From: Hexactinellida sp. DTS-2022
Lineage: Eukaryota > Porifera > Hexactinellida
DNA length: 64,000 nt
Direction: 5' to 3'
Assembly: GCA_028753945.1 (NCBI GenBank)
Contig: JAPNXP010000015.1
Location: 496,001-560,000, forward strand
The translations under genes and the position numbers were made by a program. Numbering within the stretch: the stretch's first letter is position 1; each line of letters starts with the position of its first letter. The notes beneath the pieces were generated by a model. The model was given only the letters and a program-made list of their open reading frames with translations. It had not been told where the DNA came from and ran no database searches. This document shows positions 1 to 33,162 of the stretch, in pieces.

Positions 1-3000
1 TGTCCACCATTCCATGGTAACCAGGTTACCGAACCACTGGTGTGCCAGCTCGTGTGCCACCACCAGAGCCACGCGGCGCTTGGTCATTAGGGAGGACTGA
101 TGTGGGTCGATAAGAAGGAGTCTCTCTCGATAGGTCACGAGTCCCCAGTTCTCCATCGCCCCTGCCGCGAAATCTGCTATGGCTATAAGGTCCATCTTAA
201 CCAGGGGGTATGGTATGTCGAAGTACTCTCTGAAGAATGCCAGGGCCTTGACAGATACCTCCAGGGCCCATCTGCCCTGCTCCCTCTTCCCGAGCGGCGT
301 GTACACTCTGTGGAGCACCCCGTACTTGTCGTGCTCCTCTACAAACTCGAACTCACCTACAGTGTTGGGCAACCATGGATACTGTATGTGACATGTCGTA
401 TTAAGCTGATAGTATTGATAAAGCTTAACTGCACACCATATACAGTAGAACCTCGTTAGTATGGACTGCCAAAATGCGTTCGCCTTATCCGAAATTAGTA
501 ATAAACTAATAACTTATATTAATGTTACAATGGTTTAATAATAGTTACAATGTGTATTAATAATACACAAGTTTACTAATTATCAGCTAGTTTAGGTATT
601 TCTATTTGGGAATCCTTATATAGAGTTGAGCTTCGTAGAGTTCAGATTTTTTCCCATACTAAAAGCCCAGGCTTACTTTCTAAAGGTCAATTTCAAACTC
701 TGGAAAAAAACTGACCTTTCTCAGTGCATGAATACACATAGTGAAAAACTGAACTCTACAAAGCTCAGCTCTATATAAGTAATTTCTTTCTATATTTATG
801 ATCTCTCCAAGCTAAACAAAAGTCCTGTTGTTGTCCAAAAGTAGTCAATAAATATGCGTTTCAATTTAATATTCGTCCAAACGAATATTCATTTCGAAAC
901 GAATATTCGTTCAATCATTTCGAACGAATATTTGGTATATTCGTTTCAGCCCTATATATGTTAGAGTTAAAACGTATAATCAGTTATTATCTATAAGAGG
1001 TAACTTATATGTAGATCGTCTATTTCTAGACCAGGTTTTCTTAAATAATATACATTATTACCCATACATTGCCGGCGCCACGTATTATGAGGTGTGGGTG
1101 TAGTGGGTGTCCACTGTATAGTCTAGTGCAGAGGTTCCCAACCTGGGAGGAATTCCTCCCTGGGGAGGAATTTGGCCATCCTTGGGGAGGAATTCGACAT
1201 AGGTGTACTTTTAAATATTAATGAAATTTTCTGGATTGCTTTGTCTCACTGAATGATTTAATCACTGAGTAATAAAAATTACCTAGTATTAATAATATTG
1301 ACAATTCTCATTGACAGTATTATATGTATTTCACTTAGTTTTTCAGTTATTTCAATACCAAAATTCTACATTGTAGTGCTGGGGGGAATTATAGCAAAAA
1401 TATAGGTTAGGGGGGTAATATCGTGAAATTTTTTGGAAAAGGTTGGGAACCACTGGTCTAGTGGGTGTCACTGTCCAAGCACCGCTTCATTTCCTTGAGG
1501 CAGTGTGTGTCCGGACACCCAGGACACCGGCCCTGCCATAAAAAGCAGGGCAAGTGGTCTACAGAATTTATAAGACGGCTACAAATTTTTGGCTTATTTG
1601 TATGGGCTTTTATAGACCGTCAAAAAAGAGTAAAAAAAAAAGAGCATCCGTAAGGATGCTCTTTTTTTTTTAAAACATGTTTTTTTTAAAACATGTTTTT
1701 TTTAAAACATGTTTTTTTTAAAACATGTTTTTTTTAAAACATGTTTTTTTTAAAACATGTTTTTTTTAAAACATGTTTTTTTTAAAACATGTTTTTTTTA
1801 AAACATGTTTTTTTTAAAACATGTTTTTTTTAAAACATGTTTTTTTTAAAACATGTTTTTTTTAAAACATGTTTTTTTTAAAACATGTTTTTTTTAAAAC
1901 ATGTTTTTTTTAAAACATGTTTTTTTTAAAACATGTTTTTTTTAAAACATGTTTTTTTTAAAACATGTTTTTTTTAAAACATGTTTTTTTTAAAACATGT
2001 TTTTTTTAAAACATGTTTTTTTTAAAACATGTTTTTTTTAAAACATGTTTTTTTTAAAACATGTTTTTTTTAAAACATGTTTTTTTTAAAACATGTTTTT
2101 TTTAAAACATGTTTTTTTTAAAACATGTTTTTTTTAAAACATGTTTTTTTTAAAACATGTTTTTTTTAAAACATGTTTTTTTTAAAACATGTTTTTTTTA
2201 AAACATGTTTTTTTTAAAACATGTTTTTTTTAAAACATGTTTTTTTTAAAACATGTTTTTTTTAAAACATGTTTTTTTTAAAACATGTTTTTTTTAAAAC
2301 ATGTTTTTTTTAAAACATGTTTTTTTTAAAACATGTTTTTTTTAAAACATGTTTTTTTTAAAACATGTTTTTTTTAAAACATGTTTTTTTTAAAACATGT
2401 TTTTTTTAAAACATGTTTTTTTTAAAACATGTTTTTTTTAAAACATGTTTTTTTTAAAACATGTTTTTTTTAAAACATGTTTTTTTTAAAACATGTTTTT
2501 TTTAAAACATGTTTTTTTTAAAACATGTTTTTTTTAAAACATGTTTTTTTTAAAACATGTTTTTTTTAAAACATGTTTTTTTTAAAACATGTTTTTTTTA
2601 AAACATGTTTTTTTTAAAACATGTTTTTTTTAAAACATGTTTTTTTTAAAACATGTTTTTTTTAAAACATGTTTTTTTTAAAACATGTTTTTTTTAAAAC
2701 ATGTTTTTTTTAAAACATGTTTTTTTTAAAACATGTTTTTTTTAAAACATGTTTTTTTTAAAACATGTTTTTTTTAAAACATGTTTTTTTTAAAACATGT
2801 TTTTTTTAAAACATGTTTTTTTTAAAACGTTTTTTTTAAAACATGTTTTTTTTAAAACATGTTTTTTTTAAAACATGTTTTTTTTAAAACATGTTTTTTT
2901 TAAAACATGTTTTTTTTAAAACATGTTTTTTTTAAAACATGTTTTTTTTAAAACATGTTTTTTTTAAAACATGTTTTTTTTAAAACATGTTTTTTTTAAA

Positions 3001-5196
3001 ACATGTTTTTTTTAAAACATGTTTTTTTTAAAACATGTTTTTTTTAAAACATGTTTTTTTTAAAACATGTTTTTTTTAGAGATATCTTATATGTAGACCG
3101 TCTAGAAATAGACCAGGTTTTATTCCCTATACATTAGTATTACCCATAAAAAGCAGGGCAAGTGGTCTACAGAATTTATAGACGGTCTACAAATTTTTGG
3201 CTTATTTGTATGGGCTTTTATAGACCGTCTATTTCTAGACGGTCTACATATAAGGATGCTCTTTTTAAAACATGTTTTTTTTAAAACATGTTTTTTTTAA
3301 ACAAAGTTAACCAGTGTCATTTGTTTGGAAAGGCTCTGAGGGACTGAAATAGTGTTCCTGTTGCAGTGTATATGCACTTTTGGTGTATATGCACTTTATG
3401 AACTATATTGGCTACAAGTGTACATATGTTACGGAAGATGTTGGCGATTGGAAGATGTTGGCGTTTAGCCAACATCTTCCAATCGCCAACATCTTCCGTA
3501 ACATATACACCAGTGTACACGCACTTTTGCTTGTTTTTTGTGTCAATGGGTGCTTATTAATTTTAATTAAGTATTGTGAATTCGTGTGTATCTAAGTTAT
3601 GATATAACATTGATTCTGAAATTGTACATATATTCCCTCGATGTAATAAAGCTAGTATTATACATACGTATGTTATTATGACATACGGCGCGCGTAAATT
3701 ACTTTGATAAAATTGCAATCGATTAGATTTTCACACGTGCAATTGTAGGATGCATTGCTGGGAATATAATTAGAATTAACTTCAAAGAATTTGTGTTTAT
3801 TGAAATGCATTGCAGATTATAATTGTTATCTTATCAATTAGAATCAAATGTTATACAGTCGAAACCGGTTTATTCTAAACAATTCATTTCATGGAAATAA
3901 AGTAAGAAAAATCCGATAGTTAGAATAAACCGATTGAAGATAAAACAAAATTGGAATTTCTTACACATTTAGAATAAATAGAAAACGATTAGTTACAAAA
4001 AACTGGGATTAGAAAAACCTGTTTCGACTGAATCATAACTAGATAAGATACACAGGAATTCACAATACTTATTTAAAATTAATAAGCACCCATTGACATA
4101 AAATATAAGCAAAAGTGCGTGTACACTGGTGTATATACACTTGTAGCCAATATAGTTCATAAAGTGCATGTGCACTGGTGTACATGCATGTACACTGCAA
4201 CATTCCTACTAACGAGGTTCTAATGTATAAAAGTTGTGATTGCACCCATTGCTTACCGACGATAAATGCCAGAAGGTATGTAGACATGACTGGGGTCCTC
4301 TCGAACAGGATTTCCCGCTTCTCTCCCAAATCCTTAGCCGACTTCTCTGGCATGTTAGAGAGGGCAGTTCGGCCCTTAGGGACACAGAGTGTGACGTCAA
4401 AAGTGGCCTTAAGGGCCGGCTCGTCCCAGCAGGGGAGAGCTCTTCGGGCGTCCGTCGGTTCGAACTGAGTGACGGCTGCGATCCGCTCCTCGCCAGAGGG
4501 AGTCGTGTACTTAGATCTAAATATAGAATATATATGTATACTGGACAGTCGAAACCGGTTATTTTATAACTAATCGGTTTTTCTAACTATCGGATTTTTC
4601 TTTCTTTATTTCTATGTAAAGAATTGGTTAGAAAAAACCGGTTTCGACTGTACATATACAATCTAGACAGATCAGTAAATTATCATCAAAGCAGAGGAAA
4701 TTCATTCTAACGACATTTGTAGTCTATCTATTAATACTATATAGAGATTGTTAGAGAGTTGAGGAGTTTTTATTTCGCATTTACTATACCTGTCCTATTT
4801 ACGGAGGTACATACTACATATACAATCTATACAGTACACTATGTACCTGTAGAACCCCTTCATGAGTCCGTTTAGGTTCCCGGTATACTCAAGAGTTAGA
4901 GTTCCCTCTCCCACAGCTAGCTGCTGGGGGAACACGGCGCTTATCGTCTCGGCCGTCTCGTCGTACTCCACCGCGCCCGCCTGGGCGACACCTCCACTCC
5001 TGAAGTGGCACGCTGCCACTTTAATGTCCACCGAATTCAAAACAATCTTATCTGTCTGCTCCTTGACCGTCACAACAACGGATAGCTTCCCTTGGAATGT
5101 TAGCGCGCTTAGGTCCGGAGTTATGTACAATTCGTAGTGTTTGGGCGCCACTTTAGTGGGCAGTCGCTGGAAGGGCTTCTTCTCTACCGCAGCCAT
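1..5196 (-). CDS. NPEPPS: Puromycin-sensitive aminopeptidase (M1 family), 5' part, gene runs off the window
   Basis: M1 zinc aminopeptidase that trims N-terminal residues from cytosolic peptides. Three exons are seen: 5196-4847 (start MAAVEKKPFQRLP), 4516-4257 and 356-1, the last cut by the window edge. Donors read GTACAT and GTAAGC, acceptors TTTAG and TGTAG, and phases (2, then 1) join cleanly. Exon 1 ends in GLMKGFYR and exon 2 starts SKYTTPSGEE. Exon 2 carries the PVMSTYLLAFIVG stretch. Exon 3 carries the exopeptidase motif GAMENWG and the zinc motif HELAHQWFGNLVTMEWW, with both histidines and the following glutamate present. Order and spacing match human NPEPPS closely. Intron 2 (357-4256) is inflated by satellite DNA, a hAT element and small palindromic transposons; intron 1 (4517-4846) also holds a small transposon. 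The 3' two thirds of the gene lie outside the window. Confidence 0.95.
443..540 (+). mobile_element. Left end of a TA-flanked palindromic MITE (CAGTAGAACCTCGTTAGTA family)
   Basis: After TA at 441-442 the sequence starts CAGTAGAACCTCGTTAGTA and continues with a stretch also seen in the complete copy at 8381-8557 (AATGCGTTCGCCTTATCCG). No matching right end is visible, so this is a truncated copy. The ends resemble pogo/Tigger-type terminal repeats. Confidence 0.6.
615..779. mobile_element. Palindromic MITE-like element, 165 bp
   Basis: The left end CTTATATAGAGTTGAGCTTC and the right end form an inverted repeat of about 35 bp with a few mismatches, extending through GTAGAGTTCAG. There is no coding capacity. 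The target duplication is ambiguous (TA or TATA), so the superfamily is not assigned. Confidence 0.6.
868..955. repeat. ATTCGT-rich repeat, possible terminal remnant of a hAT element
   Basis: The motif CGAATATTCGTT/TTCGAACGAATATT recurs here in both orientations and the block ends TTTCAGCCCTA. On the other strand that reads TAGGGCTGAAA, similar in style to the hAT terminus TAGGGCATTAG at 11941. No opposite end was found. Confidence 0.4.
1129..1455. mobile_element. hAT-type non-autonomous element, 327 bp, exact 8-bp TSD
   Basis: The terminal inverted repeats are CAGAGGTTCCCAACC and, at the right end read on the other strand, CAGTGGTTCCCAACC (one mismatch). They are flanked by the exact 8-bp target duplication GTCTAGTG at 1121-1128 and 1456-1463. 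Both TSD length and terminus style (CAGTGGTTCCCAACC-like) are typical of hAT transposons. There is no transposase frame. GGGAGGAATT repeats occur near the left end. Confidence 0.93.
1632..1671. repeat. Perfect A/T-flanked hairpin at the satellite border
   Basis: AGAGCATCC, loop GTAA, GGATGCTCT, extended by an A-run on the left and a T-run on the right, gives an 18-bp stem. It resembles a bacterial terminator but lies in a eukaryotic intron. It marks the junction between the palindromic module and the satellite. Confidence 0.6.
1662..3078. repeat. 16-bp satellite array (GTTTTTTTTAAAACAT), about 88 units
   Basis: Almost perfectly homogeneous tandem repeat: 8 T, 4 A, then CATG, giving the 12-bp palindrome AAAACATGTTTT in every unit. 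The only variant noticed is near 2829, where a unit lost AT. It lies in intron 2 of the aminopeptidase gene. The homogeneity points to recent expansion. Confidence 0.97.
3340..3605 (+). repeat. Repeat copy carrying a perfect 75-bp hairpin (3428-3502)
   Basis: Homologous, in opposite orientation, to 4034-4218. Shared stretches include CTTTATGAACTATATTGGCT and GGGTGCTTATTAATTTTAA. Relative to the other copy this one has an extra segment at 3424-3506: a 35-bp stem starting GTTACGGAAGATGTTGGCG, a 5-nt loop GTTTA, and the exact reverse complement. The pairing extends another 4 bp (ATAT) on each side. Confidence 0.85.
3855..4030. mobile_element. TA-flanked MITE, CAGTCGAAACCGGTTT family
   Basis: Starts CAGTCGAAACCGGTTTATTC after TA and ends CCTGTTTCGACTG. 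Internal AGAATAAACCG and TTGGAATTTCTTACA stretches recur in the copy at 25659-25823. No coding capacity; terminus style is pogo/Tc1-mariner-like. Confidence 0.8.
4034..4218 (-). repeat. Inverted copy of the 3340-3605 repeat without the hairpin
   Basis: Read on the minus strand it matches 3340-3605 on both sides of the hairpin, but has only GTGTATATACACC where the other copy carries the 80-odd base palindrome. It therefore looks like an empty site. Its outer end also contains an AACCTCGTTAGTAGGAA terminus of the 443/8381 MITE family. Confidence 0.75.
4546..4650. mobile_element. TA-flanked MITE, CAGTCGAAACCGGTT family, 105 bp
   Basis: Left end CAGTCGAAACCGGTT and right end AACCGGTTTCGACTG are inverted repeats; TA follows on the right. 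Lies in intron 1 of the aminopeptidase gene. Confidence 0.8.
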
Positions 5197-32093: not shown

Positions 32094-33162
32094 CGCGACA
32101 CATTAACAGTATACGCTATAAGTAAACAAATATTCGTCAAATTCAAGGATACACTGATTATATTGTGTTTTGTAATTTAGGACTATTTGTATTTTGATCC
32201 TAGGAGGGAGGTTAAAATAACCCGTGCCTCCTAAAACATAATACTGTAGTAGTACAGTCAGGGCTGTATCAACTCATTTTGAGTTGGCAAAATCAACTCA
32301 TTTTTCTGAATGAGTTGAATGAGTTGGTAGTGGTCTAAATGAATGAGTTGAATGAGTTGATAGCTCACTTGAATGAGTTGAAATGAGTTCAACTCATTTT
32401 AGAAATGAGTTGGTTTGAACCAACTCATTTCTAAAATTGGTTAAAATATATATCATAGACAATAATTGTCCTGCCATGTGGCATAAGTAATATTTGCGTC
32501 AACCCATAGTGAGATGCAGATCCCATCTCAATACTCGAAAAATACTCGAAATCATGAAAATAGTACTGAAGCAAGTTTTTTAGCAACAGTGGCTTGCATC
32601 GCATATGTATACAATTTTTTAAATGAGTTAATTGCATGTGAGTTACATGCATTTGAATGTGTAATTAAATGAGTCGAGTTGAACGAGTTTTAAAATGAGT
32701 TGAAATGAGTTGAATGAGTTGAAATGAGTTGGTTGCATAAAACTGGATAAATTGAATGAGTTGAATGAGTTGGTTACATCCAAATGAATGAGTTGAATGA
32801 GTTGGTACAATATAAATGAATGAGTTGGTTCCGAGGAAATCAGTTTTTTTACCAACTCAAAATGAGTTGATACAGCCCTGAGTACAGTGTACTAATTAAG
32901 CAGGAAATACACAACTTATAAATTAAGCTATCGTATGGCTGTTATTTTGAAACGACACTAATGGAATCCAATGCAACCACTCATACAATATTAAATATCA
33001 AATGCTCATTTCGTAACTAGGAAACTTAACCCCGTAAACGTTAGAAGCTTAAAAGTTAATCTCTTAGATTAATCAATTATTAATAAGTGTTGTGCAAATA
33101 CATTAAATCAGAACCTGGACATACAAAAATAGTATGAAATATATTTCTATGAAAGACCTTGG
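32094..33162. other. Intergenic spacer dominated by a hAT element
   Basis: Upstream of the elongase. Contains the hAT element at 32259-32880; the remaining sequence is AT-rich and unremarkable. Confidence 0.6.
32259..32880. mobile_element. hAT-type non-autonomous element, 622 bp, exact 8-bp TSD
   Basis: Perfect inverted ends of at least 29 bp start CAGGGCTGTATCAACTCATT; flanks are the exact duplication AGTACAGT (32251-32258, 32881-32888). Both subterminal regions are made of AATGAGTTGAATGAGTTGG repeats, dozens of copies of the terminal GAGTTG core. No transposase. Confidence 0.96.

Follow-up and report, generated by a model that had tools for sequence, protein, structure and literature searches.

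A 77-bp palindrome in a hexactinellid sponge genome, probably a Ginger2/Tdd-type MITE of which only the two terminal inverted repeats remain

Transposable elements of the foldback type are made up almost wholly of inverted repeats, an example being Galileo, an element of the P superfamily. In the human genome, the mariner-derived element MADE1 (Tc1/mariner origin) measures 80 bp and consists of two 37-bp terminal inverted repeats (TIRs) with 6 bp between them, forming a near-perfect palindrome; it stems from a longer cut-and-paste element, occurs in many copies as well as in transcribed DNA, and is the source of mir-548 (PMC1784062, in excerpt). Ginger2/Tdd elements feature TGTNR ends, 4-bp target-site duplications (TSDs), an RTATAY target and a Gypsy-integrase-like DDE transposase (PMC2836005, in excerpt), with TSDs of 4 or 5 bp being given for Ginger2 in a further source (PMC10045372, in excerpt).

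The hairpin described here lies in a stretch of 64,000 nucleotides from Hexactinellida sp. DTS-2022 (assembly GCA_028753945.1, contig JAPNXP010000015.1, positions 496,001 to 560,000), hereafter the window. It falls among the very short palindromic MITEs, which are known already, and is in this respect fairly ordinary: it shares with MADE1 the short, non-coding, almost completely palindromic build, the TIRs, a TSD, a probable origin by internal deletion from a longer cut-and-paste element and a probable location in transcribed DNA. Unlike MADE1 (PMC1784062, in excerpt), it has TGTTA ends and a 4-bp type of TSD, and its TIR-only relatives comprise four copies read, itself included, in two sizes (60 and 77 bp) that are set by the TIR units. 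With Galileo it has in common that inverted repeats make up nearly the entire element, whereas ends and TSD type are of the Ginger2 kind. The family of the hairpin shows the TGTNR termini, the 4-bp TSD and an RTATAY-like target, as Ginger2/Tdd elements do, but it additionally has 17-nt units in tandem in its TIR, together with a subterminal hairpin, which sets it apart from the elements described in the consulted sections of PMC2836005. A TIR-only palindromic derivative of Ginger2/Tdd was not found in the literature examined, including these sections. In our reading, the hairpin is very probably a Ginger2/Tdd-type MITE that was cut to its two TIRs by one repeat-to-repeat deletion. Element and host site are composed as follows:

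3355..3358, plus strand: target duplication TTCC of the host MITE, left copy
3359..4202: host MITE, 844 bp, TGTTGCAG...CTGCAACA, TGTNR-type ends, with the hairpin inside its left terminal repeat
3423..3426, plus strand: target duplication of the hairpin, left copy CATA (empty sites read TATA)
3427..3503: TIR-only element, 77 bp, TGTTACGG...CCGTAACA, arms 36, loop 5
3427..3462, plus strand: left arm, the terminal inverted repeat of the family, two 17-nt units
3463..3467, plus strand: loop GTTTA, which longer members have in their subterminal hairpin as well (opposite strand: TAAAC)
3468..3503, minus strand: right arm, reverse-complementary to the left arm at every position
3504..3507, plus strand: target duplication of the hairpin, right copy TATA
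4124..4148, minus strand: empty site that the host MITE carries in its right terminal repeat (C7:500124-500148, 0 mismatches)
4203..4206, plus strand: target duplication TTCC of the host MITE, right copy

The palindrome that an earlier note on this DNA had reported at 3424-3506 is present, its arms 3424-3462 and 3468-3506 being fully complementary (39/39 pairs) around the 5-nt loop GTTTA at 3463-3467. It represents the longest short-loop palindrome of the window, and when the letters of the window were permuted within 500-base blocks, five such shuffles gave no arm longer than 11 nt. All of the paired bases are real, but the insert proper covers 3427-3503, while the pairs 3424-3426/3504-3506 belong to the target duplication. 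Likewise, the proposed internal direct repeat GGAAGATGTTGGCG exists, although its loop-side copy is completed only by one base of the loop. The short duplication postulated for the insertion proved to be of the 4-bp type; at the window copy, CATA and TATA agree in three of four letters and are thus not an exact 4-bp TSD.

Further palindromes and repeats were observed in the window. A perfect short palindrome at 32396-32437 (arms 20, gap 2) has a 32-nt core that recurs at seven exact loci (window included), at two loci with one mismatch and at one with two; by these copies it appears to be a further dispersed hairpin family. A satellite with the 16-bp unit TTTTTTTTAAAACATG occupies about 1664-3290 with 88 exact units and is broken near 3078-3265 by a stretch with the inverted ends TATATGTAGACCGTCTAGAAATAGAC... 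and ...TAGACGGTCTACATATA, similar to which AAAAGCAGGGCAAGTGGTCTACAGAATTTAT occurs ahead of the satellite near 1562-1600. At the satellite edge, 1631-1672 forms the palindrome AAAAGAGCATCC/GGATGCTCTTTT, for which no other genome copy was found at up to 3 mismatches, and its GGATGCTCTTT appears again near 3255-3266.

The host MITE is enclosed by a perfect TTCC duplication, and its terminal repeats are identical at 150 of 160 aligned columns once the alignment omits the hairpin and one of the duplication copies. The empty site that had been claimed for the inverted copy at 4034-4218 was located at 4124-4148, with TATATA at 4132-4137. Throughout the genome, the 25-nt empty-site pattern has 100 matches at up to 3 mismatches (control 0), and the occupied left-junction pattern has two exact matches, namely the window and C2:1283882, while two further loci, at 3 mismatches, continue into TGTTGCAG, with which the host family begins. 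At C2:1283882, a sister-subfamily element of 1972 bp is inserted at the same base as the window element, and on C5 (L072) another sister-subfamily end is placed 2 bp further along the host-MITE site; on account of these two insertions, the TATATA site can be said to have been struck several times. At C2:1283746-1283773 and C18:2192035-2192062, the host MITE family itself (TGTTGCAG) apparently lies in the TATATA of its own terminal repeat (3 mismatches).

A 25-nt core of the hairpin arm yielded 58 genome matches at up to 3 mismatches (control 0), and the outer 20 nt of the arm yielded 204 (controls 6). From the loci read, 35 end pairs were assembled, three of which (152 bp) were left out as mispairings with internal TIR-like motifs, so that 32 elements with both ends and lengths of 60-2922 bp were retained, 28 from the subfamily of the window element and four from the sister subfamily. 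Their termini read TGTTA...TAACA, including those of the window element, with the end search itself demanding TGTTA-like starts. An exact 4-bp TSD flanks 20 of the 32 elements, as compared to a mean of 7.1 and no instance of 20 in 5000 trials in which the right flanks were shuffled among elements; the remaining 12, the window copy (CATA/TATA) among them, feature no exact 4-bp TSD. With elements whose left four bases are all A/T left out, the duplication is found in 7 of 14 (0.9 expected). The TSD consensus is TATA (T 53, A 45, T 47, A 54 of 64), preceded at the outward position -5 by a purine in 60 of the 64 ends. Other duplication lengths were rejected or rare: 2-bp matches, as for a TA duplication of the Tc1/mariner type, amount to 15/32 against a shuffle mean of 14.7, a 3-bp length shows no excess over shuffles among the 32 elements, and 6-bp matches (7/32 versus 4.0 expected) are in mild excess because the flanks are TATATA. 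One copy, on C6, has a 5-bp duplication (TACTT). In one longer member, a 48-nt perfect loopless palindrome with the centre TCCGGA was observed (L012 position 1256).

A candidate transposase accompanies one of the family ends. In the Ginger2/Tdd superfamily, the transposase is further marked by an H2C2 zinc finger and by the lack of GPY/F and YPYY. The end at C18:5512397 (L060 position 1498) has open frames behind it, the open reading frame (ORF) in question being 0.85 kb away, with QSDNGKEF and GSVESAN in one piece and VDLID in the piece before. The 175-aa piece resembles PFV integrase (E 4.7e-7 over residues 9-120), its match to Pfam rve being sub-threshold (12.8 bits versus a cut-off of 32.6); on other pieces, and on the L077 and L082 ORFs, Pfam gave nothing above cut-off. 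The ORF of L071, taken up first, matched no Pfam family and was rejected. The C18 copy is interrupted by one TAA, and its frame runs on through the next 600 bases; to this continuation, an ORF of L077 is 59% identical over 73 aa. L077 belongs to the sister subfamily, measures 2201 bp, and has family-type ends on either side as well as the TSD TGTA. Proximity was evaluated with the best 110 of 144 transposase matches and 145 family ends (about 100 of the 204 outer-20-nt matches plus sister ends), 0.7% of the genome being no farther than 4 kb from a listed family end. Of the 12 best matches, five lie at most 4 kb from such an end (binomial P 1.4e-8), while among those ranked 13-110 it is 1/98, as chance expects. 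A second end of the element at C18:5512397 was not found in the DNA read there, and a complete element of the window subfamily with both ends and an intact transposase was not among the elements read. Long uninterrupted frames at C1:753107 and C17:123336 (972 codons each) and at C18:2334040 (666 codons) mark candidate intact elements; they are related to the linked transposase with 62% identity over 58 aa. We infer that the hairpin family would be mobilised by an integrase-like DDE transposase, with cleavage at TGTTA...TAACA termini and insertion into RTATAY-like targets under 4-bp duplication.

The longer members also offer a route by which the hairpin may have been made. Its core GGAAGATGTTGGCGTTTAGCCAACATCTTCC occurs at 16 places, of which 12 are ends of longer members and four are the TIR-only copies read, and in the longer members it is the subterminal hairpin, placed just inside one or both ends, whose far arm GCCAACATCTTCC directly repeats units of the opposite end. 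One deletion between these direct repeats would strip off the interior and leave a perfect 77-bp palindrome, and use of the outermost unit would lead to a 60-bp product instead; slippage during replication, or gap repair left incomplete following excision, could be the source of such deletions. Deletions were computed between the direct 13-nt units of six window-subfamily elements and an 11-nt unit of two sister-subfamily elements, i.e., for 8 of the 32 elements. L058 and either strand of L024 gave the window 77-mer letter for letter, and the exact 60-mer of C6:4786415 and C18:2538772 was obtained from L023, L024, and L058. L048 resulted in a 60-mer with one end differing, and L009 and L015, which are devoid of the subterminal hairpin, in nothing below 130 bp. 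Products of 93, 60, and 43 bp predicted for the other strand of L023 were not seen, and neither was a 110-bp product that L024 also permits, among the matches listed. For the sister subfamily, the model gives a 60-mer ending in ...GTC on one side and in ...GGC on the opposite side; at C1:7415833-7415894, known by coordinates only, ends with GGC and GTT stand 60 bp apart end to end, and exact sister ends among the matches listed have GTC in 29/29. The 77-bp product could either have transposed into the TATATA of the host MITE or have arisen there from a longer insertion. No function is needed to account for the hairpin.

Beyond the window, three more TIR-only copies were read, one of 77 bp (C18:5713437) and two of 60 bp (C18:2538772 and C6:4786415), and a fourth is indicated by coordinates only. 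The suggestion of a minimal foldback transposon in the earlier note was therefore essentially right, as the hairpin is a foldback-like insertion with related copies elsewhere in the assembly. The two 60-mers are identical to each other in unrelated flanks; TACTT borders the C6 copy on both sides and TATATA the two C18 copies. Compared to the window element, the 77-mer at C18:5713437 has just two changes, at positions 9 and 69, and these two bases form a pair; an end at C16:3423557 (L052) has the same outer letter and shares a 46-nt prefix with it. Because the change is paired in both arms and such an end exists, this copy may have originated by independent collapse of another parent or by arm conversion. 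Perfect identity of the arms had been taken as a sign of youth or of maintenance by conversion, which is not supported: conversion is not required because the nine longer elements that carry two units on either side have identical 36-nt ends as well (0/324 positions differ), and in the first 19 positions of all 28 longer elements 6/532 differ. As a proof of youth, arm identity was rejected, since arms of the same age would by chance show 36 identical pairs in about 1 of 10 cases, an estimate based on the 10 of 160 aligned columns at which the host terminal repeats differ.

Each of the two sizes was found twice in unrelated flanks, which fits transposition of the bare ends; in-place collapse, favoured by the repeats, would look alike. 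In our judgement the balance between these two is close to even, with a slight leaning toward transposition of the bare hairpin. The further-reaching proposal that TIRs of this Ginger2-type family have a shrink-to-ends design, collapsing repeatedly and in at least two subfamilies to fixed 60/77-bp palindromes that still transpose, is put forward tentatively and appears rather doubtful.

Three other explanations were weighed against the deletion between repeats, two of which concern how a palindrome could come about without it. In snap-back synthesis, a nascent strand would fold on the subterminal hairpin and copy its own end, no deletion joining two ends being involved. This would yield perfect arms as in both 77-mers and would explain why C18:5713437 is changed at matching positions of its two arms; still, it leaves the asymmetric 60-mers without an account, which the deletion model provides by the outer unit, and the copying would be expected to continue into the flanks, which are not palindromic beyond the target duplication. 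Snap-back synthesis is thus considered unlikely. An artefact of assembly or amplification, i.e., a foldback read, would agree with the palindrome being known from a single assembly, but is highly improbable, with the palindrome ending at the family termini TGTTA/TAACA next to target-like flanks and like elements occurring at three other loci with unrelated flanks.

The third explanation, a hairpin RNA gene (miRNA or siRNA precursor) whose palindrome is selected for RNA folding, draws on the gene context, for which the following open frames are relevant:

5199-4798, minus strand: open frame, Peptidase_M1_N
4072..4563, minus strand: open frame, second part of Peptidase_M1_N, exon upstream of the probable intron with the hairpin
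1..513, minus strand: open frame, Peptidase_M1, next recognised exon downstream

Since minus-strand frames of Peptidase_M1_N and Peptidase_M1 flank it, the hairpin probably sits in an M1 aminopeptidase gene, inside an intron of some 3.9 kb, with the exon edges set by eye. Besides this location, a predicted RNA fold of -68.5 kcal/mol for the 77 bases and the precedent of human MADE1, which gave rise to mir-548 (PMC1784062, in excerpt), speak in favor of an RNA gene. Against it, all Rfam matches (E-value mode) remained below the gathering threshold, the best being mir-4536 with E 0.0002 and 35.9 versus 76 bits; as miRNA evidence this match was rejected, as any perfect hairpin may score so. Moreover, the host-MITE site is empty in 100 matches, so the hairpin is not conserved at this site. 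Selection as an RNA gene is accordingly regarded as quite improbable, and we retain the reduction of a longer MITE by one deletion between repeats as the preferred origin.

With this origin, one genome displays the full path from a longer MITE to the bare ends, and an exact deletion model predicts the sizes observed. Should the bare hairpins be immobile, they would be an ordinary product of MITE decay. If they do move, they would show how little DNA a transposase of the Ginger2 type requires, the minimal substrate being about 60 bp should the bare 60/77-bp palindromes still transpose, and perfect hairpins would be seeded into introns as a starting point for small-RNA genes, as with MADE1 and mir-548 (PMC1784062, in excerpt).
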